Shown here one piece after another: positions 51,475-54,043 of a stretch of 64,000 bases of DNA. Location of the stretch: assembly GCF_021021475.1 (NCBI RefSeq), contig NZ_JAINWL010000001.1, positions 992,001 to 1,056,000 of the forward strand, in the 5' to 3' direction. Below the pieces are notes generated by a model. The model saw only the letters and a list, made by a program, of their open reading frames with translations. It did no database searches and was not told where the DNA came from. Made by a program: the position numbers and the translations under genes. Position 1 is the stretch's first letter. Each line of letters opens with the position of its first letter. This DNA comes from Citromicrobium bathyomarinum (lineage in GTDB: Bacteria; Pseudomonadota; Alphaproteobacteria; Sphingomonadales; Sphingomonadaceae).

Positions 51475-52470
51475 ATGGGCATCCAGCAACCGGTGAATTC
51501 GGGCTTCGGCCGGACGAGTGAACCGCAGGAGGTGCTGGACGGCATCGATCTCTCCGGCAAGGTCGCGATCGTTACCGGCGGCTATTCGGGCATCGGGGTG
51601 GAAACCGTGCGCGGGCTCGCCGGTGCGGGCGCGACAGTGATCGTGCCCGCGCGCGACCATGCCAAGGCGGTGGGCAACCTCTCCGATGTGGTGGGCGACG
51701 TCACGATCATGGCGATGGACCTCGCCGACCTCGCCACGGTGCGCGCCTTCGCTGCCGAGTTCATGGCACAGCACGACCGGCTCGATCTGCTGATCAACAA
51801 TGCCGGGATCATGGCGTGCCCGCTGACCCGATTGGATCAGGGTGGGGGCCCGGGCTGGGAACAGCAGTTCGGCGTCAATCACCTCGGCCACTTCGCGCTG
51901 GCACAGGCGCTGATGCCGCTGCTCGTCAAGACCGCCGACCAGCCGGACAGCGACGTGCGCGTGGTCGCGCTGTCCTCCACCGGCCACAAGCTCTCGGATA
52001 TCCGCTGGGACGATCCGCACTGGGAATCGGGCGAATACGACAAGTGGAAGGCCTACGGACAGGCCAAGACCGCCGACGCGCTGTTTGCCGTGGGCATGAA
52101 CACGCGGCTGGCCGAGCATGGCGGACGCGCGTTCTCGGTCCACCCCGGCGGGATCATGACCCCGCTGCAACGCCACCTCGATACCGAGGAAATGACCGCA
52201 CTGGGCTGGATGAACGAGGATGGCGAGCTGTCCGAACAAGCCGCCAAGATGTTCAAGAGCGTGACGCAGGGTGCCTCGACCACTCTGTGGGCCGCGACCT
52301 CGCCGGCGCTGAAGGACCGCGGCGGCGAGTATTGCGAGGACTGCGACATCGCACAGCTGGCCGATCCGGAGAACCGCAGCCGCTACAACAAAGTGCAGCC
52401 CTACGCGGTCGACGAGGACAACGCGCAGCGCCTGTGGGCGATGAGCGAGGAGATGGTCGCGGCGGTGTGA
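51475..52470 (+). CDS. Short-chain dehydrogenase/reductase (WWOX/retinol-dehydrogenase-like)
   Basis: This 331-aa SDR has the cofactor motif TGGYSGIGVETVRGLAGAGA near residue 35, LLINNAGIMACP, and the NHLGHFALAQALMPLL helix. The catalytic Ser/Tyr/Lys region is ALSSTGHKLSDI...YDKWKAYGQAKTADALF (Y-G-Q-A-K in the place of YxxxK). SVHPGGIMTPLQRHL is the usual post-site loop. It resembles 'extended' SDRs annotated as oxidoreductases of unknown substrate. GGGAGAGA precedes the ATG at 51475. It could be cotranscribed with ald, without a known link. A 32-codon frame overlaps its stop. Confidence 0.9.
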   Translation: MGIQQPVNSGFGRTSEPQEVLDGIDLSGKVAIVTGGYSGIGVETVRGLAGAGATVIVPARDHAKAVGNLSDVVGDVTIMAMDLADLATVRAFAAEFMAQHDRLDLLINNAGIMACPLTRLDQGGGPGWEQQFGVNHLGHFALAQALMPLLVKTADQPDSDVRVVALSSTGHKLSDIRWDDPHWESGEYDKWKAYGQAKTADALFAVGMNTRLAEHGGRAFSVHPGGIMTPLQRHLDTEEMTALGWMNEDGELSEQAAKMFKSVTQGASTTLWAATSPALKDRGGEYCEDCDIAQLADPENRSRYNKVQPYAVDEDNAQRLWAMSEEMVAAV

Positions 52471-52565
52471 TTGGTCGAGAAAAGCTCAAGGCGGACGGAG
52501 CGACATCTATCCCCTCGGACGAGATCAAAAATATGAAGGGCTATTTCGGCGGCGGCGTTCGCTAA
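52467..52565 (+). CDS. Possible 32-aa peptide coupled to the SDR gene
   Basis: A GTG overlapping the SDR stop (GTGA) opens a frame of 32 codons with genome-like codon use. It reads IGREKLKADGATSIPSDEIK and ends in KNMKGYFGGGVR. No family is recognised. It could be a small coupled protein or the leftover 3' end of a gene removed when the downstream accessory DNA entered. Confidence 0.3.
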   Translation: MIGREKLKADGATSIPSDEIKNMKGYFGGGVR

Positions 52566-52630
52566 ATGCGATAAGTCACACAATAGCGTACGCAACGCTT
52601 TGTGAGGGCGCCCCCTCTGACAACTCCCCC

Positions 52631-52683
52631 ATACCGCGACACCGTGACACCGCGATACCCTGACACCGTGATACCGCGATACC
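52631..52683. repeat. 8-bp direct tandem repeats, about 6.6 units (iteron-like)
   Basis: The unit is AYACCGYG (for example ATACCGCG, ACACCGTG), repeated without spacers. One unit ends in CTG rather than GYG. An A/T-rich stretch follows immediately. The repeats are too short and unspaced for CRISPR. Iterons of replication initiators or a simple slipped repeat are the two main readings. Confidence 0.75.
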
Positions 52684-52728
52684 ATTATAATCCATAATTA
52701 GCTTATTTAACAATGCCTTGAGGCAAAC

Positions 52729-52748
52729 TTTGCGCGTATACGCGCAAA
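52729..52748. repeat. 20-bp perfect palindrome
   Basis: TTTGCGCGTA joined to TACGCGCAAA forms a perfect palindrome, 272 bases upstream of the winged-helix gene. It lies in otherwise low-GC sequence. It is a plausible dimeric operator, possibly for the downstream winged-helix protein itself. Confidence 0.75.
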
Positions 52749-52974
52749 CTGGCGAAGCGGGCTGGTAGATATGCGCGGACTCAATTCTTGGAAAAGTCAG
52801 AAAAATGTCGTGTTGAAGTCAAAACTACTGAAAGTCCGCATTGGACTTTTGATTCGCTTGCTGCGATATTGCAATCATCGTGAACGTCGAGAGGGTTAGC
52901 CAGGGTCCAAACCTGTGCCGGACCTCCTAAAGCCAGCATTCTTCACGGTGGTGATGGCGAGACTGCGTAGCGAA

Positions 52975-53003
52975 GGGTCCGGCGTCAAACCCGGACCCGT
53001 TTT
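52975..53003 (+). terminator. Leader terminator-like hairpin just before the winged-helix gene
   Basis: GGGTCCGG (52975-52982) pairs with CCGGACCC (52991-52998) around an 8-base loop and is followed by GTTTT. It ends 16 bases before the ATG at 53020. In this position it would attenuate transcription into the gene. It also argues that the frame upstream of 53020 is not translated. Confidence 0.6.
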
Positions 53004-53019
53004 AATTCTGGGGATCGAG

Positions 53020-53628
53020 ATGGCCAACCGACGCGCAAGTGCAGTTTTAAAGCGTCAGCTTAAAACACGCGCTCGGCTGTGGCCCGATGTTCGCAGCGAG
53101 GAATTATGGAGCCTCGATAATGAGGGTTGGGCCCCGCTGCCCCGACTAATGCCTTTAATGATGAGCATTATGGATGATTTGGCGGGAAAGGGGACACCCG
53201 TCAGTCGAGTATATCTTGAGTTATGGTCACGGCTTCGCGAAGAAGCGTTCCTCTCACTTGGCAATGCTCAAGAAATGGCGTTTCATGCTGGGTTTGAGGG
53301 GCAAAGGGCGCTCCGGACATGGCGTGATCGCGTCGCAAGGTTAGCCGAGCTTGGCTTTATCGAGTTGAAAGACGGCCCTTTTGGTGAACAGTCCTATGCA
53401 CTGTTTCCTAACCCTTACCATGTGGTGAAACGGCATTTTTTGAAGGGCAATGTGCAGGAACGCAAATGGCAGGCGCTCCTTGTGCGGGCAGAAGAGATTC
53501 CGGCATTAGACATCGATGATATTGATGATCAGGGAAACCTCATCCTTGAAGAGGAGGATGATCCCAAAGAGAGCGAGAAACCTGAGAAGAGGATCATCCG
53601 GCGGACTGTAAAGCGCCCGGCTAAGTGA
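53020..53628 (+). CDS. Winged-helix protein of unknown function, possibly replication-initiator-like
   Basis: No named family is recognised for this 202-aa protein. The N-terminus is basic (MANRRASAVLKRQLKTRARL). The centre, about residues 85-145, looks like a winged helix: RALRTWRDRVARLAELGFIE as recognition region, then KDGPFGEQSYALFPNPYHVV as the wing. The C-terminus is an acidic then basic tail (EEEDDPKE...RRTVKRPAK). GGGATCGAG precedes the ATG at 53020. GC content is lower than that of both neighbours. The iteron-like repeats, palindrome and leader hairpin upstream suggest a plasmid-type Rep or a self-regulated DNA-binding protein. Its last eight bases overlap the 3' end of the convergent thioesterase gene. 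Confidence 0.7.
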   Translation: MANRRASAVLKRQLKTRARLWPDVRSEELWSLDNEGWAPLPRLMPLMMSIMDDLAGKGTPVSRVYLELWSRLREEAFLSLGNAQEMAFHAGFEGQRALRTWRDRVARLAELGFIELKDGPFGEQSYALFPNPYHVVKRHFLKGNVQERKWQALLVRAEEIPALDIDDIDDQGNLILEEEDDPKESEKPEKRIIRRTVKRPAK

Positions 53629-54043
53629 AATCGCGAAACGGCGCCGCAATCTCCGCCGTGATCCGCGCCGGGCGCATGGTCTCGCGGTCGAGCATCGCCC
53701 AGCGGGTCACCGCCGCGACCAGCACCTTGCCCGCGTCGTCAACGAACTGCACCTCGCGCCCGAACTGCGCGCCTTTTGGTTCGCCATGCACGCGGGTTCT
53801 GCCATGCGCCGTCTCGCCCGCCTTGATGTTGCCGCGATAGTCGATCTCGTGCCGGGTCACGACCCAGATGTAACGCTCGCGGTGCTCCTCGGGTGCGACC
53901 GCGTGCCAGTGCGACACCGCGATGTCCTGAATCCAGCGGACCCACTCGGCATTGTTCACATGGCCGAGCTCGTCGATATGCTCGGGGCTTGCGGTGTAGT
54001 CGCGCTCGAAGGCCCAGCTATTTTCGGAAGTCTCGTCGCTCAC
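53621..54043 (-). CDS. Hotdog-fold acyl-CoA thioesterase (YbgC/FadM-like)
   Basis: This 140-aa protein matches the 4-hydroxybenzoyl-CoA thioesterase group. YTASPEHIDELGHVNNAEWVRWIQDIA carries the D-x-x-GHVNN variant of the active-site Asp motif. VVTRHEIDYRGNIKAGET is the second conserved strand pair. It would hydrolyse an acyl-CoA, but the substrate is unknown. The start is GTG at 54043, ten bases after the HAD hydrolase stop, so the two are probably one operon. The 3' end overlaps the accessory winged-helix gene. Confidence 0.9.
   Translation of the reverse strand: MSDETSENSWAFERDYTASPEHIDELGHVNNAEWVRWIQDIAVSHWHAVAPEEHRERYIWVVTRHEIDYRGNIKAGETAHGRTRVHGEPKGAQFGREVQFVDDAGKVLVAAVTRWAMLDRETMRPARITAEIAAPFRDFT

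Follow-up and report, generated by a model that had tools for sequence, protein, structure and literature searches.

A winged-helix gene with a direct-repeat array and a structured leader in Citromicrobium bathyomarinum is probably a portable control module present as an orphan

Among the described systems closest to the locus studied here are the omega-epsilon-zeta toxin-antitoxin (TA) systems, in which omega binds short repeats. In these three-component systems, as in PaaR-PaaA-ParE, a separate DNA-binding protein joins the TA pair, according to the sections of the source considered here (PMC5086665). BrxR is a winged helix-turn-helix (wHTH) regulator that lies beside many unrelated defence systems, and 48% of its homologues occur together with known systems in the portion of the report used (PMC9122601). 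Finally, in the excerpted part of its report, StbA of plasmid R388 binds 9-bp direct repeats that precede its gene and confers stability on the plasmid (PMC3098194).

We looked at a 64,000-nucleotide stretch of the C. bathyomarinum genome (contig NZ_JAINWL010000001.1, positions 992,001 to 1,056,000; hereafter the window, to which all coordinates refer), which holds one member of an undescribed DNA-binding family for which Pfam, NCBIfam, PHROG and PADLOC offer no model. Like BrxR and the WYL regulators, as these appear in the excerpts considered, the family has a wHTH domain, here predicted by AlphaFold, and diverse defence neighbours; the WYL domain, however, is theirs, and Pfam gave no WYL match at E ≤0.1 in 21 family members. 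In the same excerpts (PMC9122601) BrxR binds inverted repeats near its promoter, whereas the family has a direct-repeat array far upstream, and the structured leader found in part of the family is a further difference from that description. As in the three-component TA systems, a toxin, an antitoxin and a separate regulator are linked at all 12 loci with yafQ, but here, compared with the layouts given in the sections considered, the antitoxin gene is transcribed divergently, the regulator gene adjoins that of the toxin, and members of this regulator family head non-TA cargo as well. The stbDR repeats of R388, in the excerpt used, are short direct repeats 5' of a DNA-binding-protein gene, as are those found here (PMC3098194); StbA itself has no sequence relation to the family.

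The gene lies in an inserted segment (52473-53636). When 52301-53900 was compared by blastn with the interval between the SDR and thioesterase genes of eight relatives, homology broke off at about 52459-52472 and restarted at about 53634-53637 in all eight, and neither the array nor the gene had a match in these intervals. The SDR and thioesterase flanks are kept across the genus, and the interval between them ranged from 692 to 4156 bp in the eight relatives, with other DNA inside (relative G004, whose flanks were only partly present, was left out of this comparison, and G118 entered by blastn only). A sequence-only reading of the window had pointed to a lower GC content and to an overlap with the neighbour's 3' end, and both were borne out: GC per bin was 0.50-0.57 within the insert compared with 0.61-0.73 around it, and the gene, whose stop is at 53628, runs by 8 bp into the 3' end of the thioesterase ORF, which converges on it and has its stop at 53621. 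In the relatives set the family gene was present in the genome of the window and in one of 117 others, and in the class it was present in 3 of 385 genomes, that of the window counted. Because the segment is absent from the intervals of eight relatives and the gene is rare in the wider sample, this 1.16-kb segment seems to have arrived recently, as a compact unit, in an interval that varies. Neither an integrase nor a transposase gene was seen in it. Of the mobile unit without integrase that had been suggested, the compact insert in a variable interval stands, but no mechanism of movement was found. A 32-codon open stretch (52467-52562) was considered as a cargo remnant and rejected; it had no plasmid match and, among family loci, only chance matches. 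In the relative G007 (L104) the same variable interval holds a duplicated thioesterase 3' end (856-1045 and 1775-2039) with about 0.7 kb of other DNA between the copies.

The gene itself (53020-53628, plus strand) encodes a 202-aa protein with a basic N-terminal helix, a winged helix and a charged C-terminal tail; this length depends on the chosen start, the mechanical ORF beginning at 52915. The AlphaFold model, a basic N-terminal helix followed by a winged helix (mean pLDDT 86.6), agrees with the DNA-binding protein gene that had been proposed. The family protein had no match in PHROGs, NCBIfam or PADLOC, its best Pfam match (E 0.0094, and 0.0095 in the scan of 21 members) was under the cut-off, none of these being an initiator, and the PDB held no sequence relative below E 1. 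Structural neighbours of the window protein are general wHTH proteins; Foldseek gave no significant hit (best E 0.03), and the Foldseek and VIA lists contained no significant single match, a result that leaves room for kinship. No description of the family was found among the matches listed from titles and abstract starts of the open-licence literature, preprints excluded, nor was a paper found on one enteric accession carrying the gene.

Plasmid homologues of the protein, which would set it apart from a gene confined to chromosomes at the same place, were found on 164 of 72,556 plasmid records (tblastn, E ≤0.01). The 60 that were listed have rhizobial megaplasmids at one end and enteric plasmids of 3.4-6.6 kb at the other, and 21 records were examined as regions. 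Another 50 family loci came from the species-level genome collection, scanned with an 8-sequence alignment of alpha-type members as query, the gamma and beta plasmid members coming from elsewhere. Among 50,697 phage records one, a P2-group Burkholderia phage, carries the family gene; three pattern matches in viral contigs included no relative. In this phage, Musica (L024), we observed a repeat array upstream of the family gene and an AlbA_2/Schlafen-like gene downstream (gap 205). The starts of L025-L074 were picked by script score, and the upstream analyses were made without L012 (gene incomplete in the alignment) and L073 (partial, with no upstream).

An array, an A/T-rich stretch, a palindrome and a leader all lie within 450 bases 5' of the gene, and the first three had been anticipated from the sequence as tandem 8-mers, a melting-prone segment and an operator-like palindrome; each proved to be present. 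The direct-repeat array (52631-52683, plus strand, unit GNGAYACC) was reported by Tandem Repeats Finder with period 8, 6.6 copies and 77% matches, and as 16- and 24-mers too. Its direct-repeat score of 23 was equalled by 0 of 100 dinucleotide shuffles (18.1 ± 1.0), and its pattern is unique to the locus in the 3.2-Mb genome (five overlapping matches with at most 2 mismatches; 0 for the reversed control). In the first 30 bp past the array (52684-52713) GC falls to 0.20, compared with 0.33-0.57 in the bins after. The perfect 20-bp palindrome TTTGCGCGTATACGCGCAAA (52729-52748), a possible second operator, was matched by none of 60 shuffles; as a family element the palindrome was rejected, 11 of 56 loci passing (≤3/60 shuffles reaching the score) with about 4 expected by chance.

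Promoter-like sites were also seen. A leftward TTGTTA-18-TATAAT site on the minus strand (52684-52713) abuts the array and points through it. It is strong in the window (0/60 shuffles), but as a family feature the leftward promoter was rejected, with a mean of 6.27 compared with 6.21 in shuffles over 55 loci (one-sided Wilcoxon P 0.05) and 6.50 on the plus strand. A putative rightward promoter region (52831-52870, plus strand) comprises an inverted repeat, AAAGTCC-GCATT-GGACTTT (52831-52849), and the hexamers TTGGAC (−35-like, 52841-52846) and GATATT (−10-like, 52865-52870), which, like their spacing, were read by eye; a consensus scan did not find the promoter placed at 52841-52870.

The array is a property of the family. 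In 63 of 72 loci no more than 5 of 100 shuffles equalled the array score. The units are AGCAC-like with a spacing of 8-11 or, in the clade of the window gene, ATACC-like with one of about 8. When a fixed unit pattern was used, 14 of 18 sequences had an array cluster of at least three units, in every case in front of the gene and on its strand, and two more three-unit clusters were located elsewhere in these sequences. The geometry is fixed where a conserved AAGTCATTG-like motif, itself promoter-like, occurs: 20 of 23 motif instances lie 142-164 bp past the array end (median 153), the distances grouping near 143, 153 and 164, that is, about one helical turn apart, and the three exceptions are at 34, 55 and 180 bp. 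The DNA 3' of the array is A/T-rich on average, with mean GC of 0.33-0.44 in 30-bp bins compared with 0.52-0.62 before it (56 loci). The array ends behind these figures were entered by hand for 56 of the 73 loci for geometry and GC, 56 for the palindrome and 55 for the leftward promoter.

The unit is also clade-specific. In a maximum-likelihood tree, from which five loci had been dropped beforehand and the unknown residues of L071 deleted, the clade of the window gene comprised 17 rows with a support of 100/100, and the ATACC unit was present in 17 of 17 of its members compared with 1 of 51 of the rest. Such a match of clade and unit is what a protein-operator pair would give, as a single evolutionary split rather than 68 independent cases.

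Between the putative promoter and the gene, the window clade has a conserved, structured 5' leader RNA (model R1; 52876-53000, plus strand), identified by a 17-sequence alignment, folding, covariation and a genome search. The leader aligns throughout the clade and contains, in order, the conserved AUCGUGAAGG, hairpin 1 (52899-52918, loop GUCCAAA), hairpin 2 (52932-52958, loop CUUCACGGU), AGCGAAGG and hairpin 3 (52975-52998), all three hairpins being on the plus strand. Hairpin 3 is terminator-like, with GUCAAA in a loop that is one base shorter in the window than in relatives, and is followed by the short T-run GTTTTAATTC, so that the hairpin and T-run noticed before the start codon in the sequence-only reading are indeed there. 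Hairpins 1 and 3, drawn from fold and covariation, showed both-sided changes in 13 of 16 pairs, with a covariation score reached by none of 500 shuffles. Hairpin 2 was drawn from hand-anchored segments: in 16 of them 84.4% of cells were paired compared with 58.5% in shuffles (0/500), and double-change cells numbered 24 compared with 10.3 (0/500). For this set L067 was left out and six segments were shifted by hand by 9 bases to the second GGT, a choice that favours the structure. The number of its pairs with a both-sided change did not exceed that of shuffles (288/500).

Of the 63 non-redundant upstreams (reduced from 71) 31 contain the 8-mer GTCCAAAC, compared with 2 of 63 gene bodies. In a hairpin scan of 23 sequences it formed the loop of sense-strand hairpins and was never found on the minus strand; four looser-loop matches lay on the plus strand, far from the gene. 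The last hairpin with this loop is usually 36-48 bases 5' of the start codon, and the loop is missing from enteric, YafQ and some other members. A covariance-model search of 385 genomes gave four hits, of which three immediately precede a family gene: G000 and G456 (whose gene is that of L068) are in or identical to the model set, G146 is new and adjoins a family gene with only 29 bases covered, and the fourth, G365, is weak and in a genome without the family gene. Rfam gave no match at gathering score in the window, the leader region reaching E values of 1.7 and 3.7, far below gathering, and the window leader taken singly had an ordinary fold energy (z −0.43), with no extra stability. The minimum-energy fold of 52877-53030 pairs hairpin 1 with hairpin 3 rather than forming the covarying local hairpins; either this is a two-state attenuator or the energy model is misleading.

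The cargo next to the family gene varies. By a mechanical rule (co-directional, gap ≤90, score ≥3.4) a partner was present in 36 of 73 loci, with L015 and L016 as doubtful cases and an IS gene as the partner at L051, and 37 had no close co-directional partner; the yafQ loci L038 and L074 fell just under the score. Where yafQ comes next after the gene (12 loci, gap −4 to +5), a divergent dinJ match always lies upstream, with its start 394-417 bp from the gene start, and the array passed the shuffle test in 11 of the 12 (at L039, 9/100 shuffles reached its score). With the antitoxin and toxin genes on either side of the array, this split DinJ-YafQ layout is an unusual three-gene TA arrangement (L020, L034, L036-L039, L044, L046, L047, L050, L064 and L074). 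By eye, loci without yafQ have no consistent divergent gene. Inside the yafQ clade other genes occupy the same place, a PHP-ATPase at L035 and, at L056, a protein of 1334 aa whose AAA match is below threshold, and since both nest within this clade, cargo has been swapped behind the regulator.

In the part of the loci scanned for partner families, the downstream genes included AbiJ (L014, L049), an Abi_C protein (L041; below the cut-off at L054), PD-T7-1 (L062), GajA/OLD (L070), NYN (L017), DUF3800 (L045) and an Mrr-like gene (L011, gap 161), and genes without a Pfam match (L002, L003, L006, L009, L042 and L058). These defence and toxin neighbours were counted in family loci alone, and the neighbours of mobile genes are frequently defence genes by chance, which counts against a defence association. 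On the small enteric ColE1-like plasmids L002, L006-L008, L019 and L023 the family gene is closely coupled with a single partner gene, the partner proteins being of two dissimilar kinds; one partner of each kind was scanned (L002, L006) and had no Pfam match. By eye, L026, L032 and L066 have an opposite-strand ORF of about 305-321 aa, similar in wording, downstream of the family gene. The window copy has no defence or toxin neighbours, and neither a toxin nor an antitoxin gene was recognised next to it. In its clade 13 of 17 members, the window among them, have no partner and one more has an IS gene only, and Hirschia maritima (L067) is apparently another orphan amid ordinary genes, going by gene names read by eye.

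Looking at the array and the A/T-rich DNA that follows it, averaged over 56 loci, an origin comes to mind: in an integrated small-plasmid replicon, as the sequence-only reading had proposed, the protein would bind iterons, the A/T-rich segment would melt and the leader would limit copy number. We consider this improbable. Repeats of 8-11 bp are short for iterons, a DnaA-box-like match was found by a simple pattern in only 1 of 73 upstreams, and Pfam recognised no initiator domain in the family protein (21 members), even though the plasmid initiator domains PDB 4pt7 and 5kbj, which we take to be staphylococcal RepA_N, share its wHTH arrangement with middling Z values (5.6-5.9) tied with those of unrelated wHTH proteins. 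Most of the examined plasmids, moreover, have other origins. RNAI, the copy-control RNA of ColE1-type plasmids, was detected in seven of eight scanned sources (six enteric ColE1-like plasmids and one Aeromonas plasmid), and RepA or TrfA is annotated on L003, L004, L009, L015 and L021; L005, by contrast, is without RNAI, and a Pfam scan of 19 proteins of the L005 and L014 plasmids gave no initiator, which leaves room for the replicon there. The presence of the family gene in a P2-like phage and beside toxins also argues against it. An array that is cis-linked, on a single strand and mostly present once per plasmid would equally suit a segregation module without its own motor, in which the array is a centromere, the protein a plasmid-positioning adaptor and the cargo incidental. 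The precedent is R388 StbA, yet an hmmsearch of all R388 frames gave a best E of 4.8, several carriers have ParA systems or are ColE1 types, and such a module would be useless to the chromosomal orphans, so that we hold this explanation to be unlikely.

The window copy, as distinct from the family, might be the decaying relic of a larger element, its leader and array persisting only through recent arrival. The lack of cargo, the absence of any integrase seen, the variable interval among relatives, the shortened hairpin 3 loop and a GC content unlike the host's all go in this direction, but the open frame, the array, the hairpins and the conserved protein residues are all intact. We regard the relic as a tentative possibility; it can be compatible with the explanation that we prefer, namely a portable control switch.

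Altogether, the insert is supported as foreign, plasmid-type DNA with an autoregulator-like anatomy, the self-regulated regulator being the best fitting of the alternatives offered by the sequence-only reading. The unit is probably a portable control switch, the window copy having been left without cargo. We think it reasonably likely that a portable module, an autoregulated controller of toxin and defence cargo, is present here as an orphan copy; we infer its binding and regulation, in which it would resemble BrxR or the third gene of three-component TA systems while not being a WYL protein. The protein would bind the direct repeats side by side and, from the array and the promoter sites, would repress its own transcript and the neighbouring cargo, which would include co-directional genes such as yafQ and also the antitoxin gene dinJ, transcribed divergently from the far side of the array. 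In the window clade the leader RNA may add a second layer, the last hairpin, by the ribosome-binding region, stopping transcription or hiding the start. If a plasmid entered a cell without the protein, or if the protein were lost, cargo expression would go up. The window copy, having no cargo, would be either a relic or self-controlling only. Two observations weaken the portable switch: direct repeats 150 bp from a promoter are unusual for a simple repressor, and close partners are lacking at 37 of 73 loci and, in the window clade, at 13 of 17. A bolder version, which we put forward as quite doubtful, is that one protein reads both DNA and RNA: the winged helix would coat an array kept at a fixed, helix-phased distance from the promoter and the basic N-terminal helix would recognise the GUCCAAA-loop hairpins of its own leader, making a two-layer switch for any toxin or defence gene, and orphan chromosomal copies would serve as immunity by silencing the cargo of incoming plasmids with the same array type.

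Defence and toxin cargo on a plasmid has to be kept low but available when the plasmid reaches a new cell. With its readable cis array, fixed geometry and structured leader, a control module shared across the family would be a marker for cargo that has gone unrecognised; several of the partners found here have no known domain. The module also occurs on small enteric plasmids, whose annotation calls both the gene and its partner hypothetical. It would further offer a model, open to testing, of the way in which one switch comes to govern unrelated defence genes.
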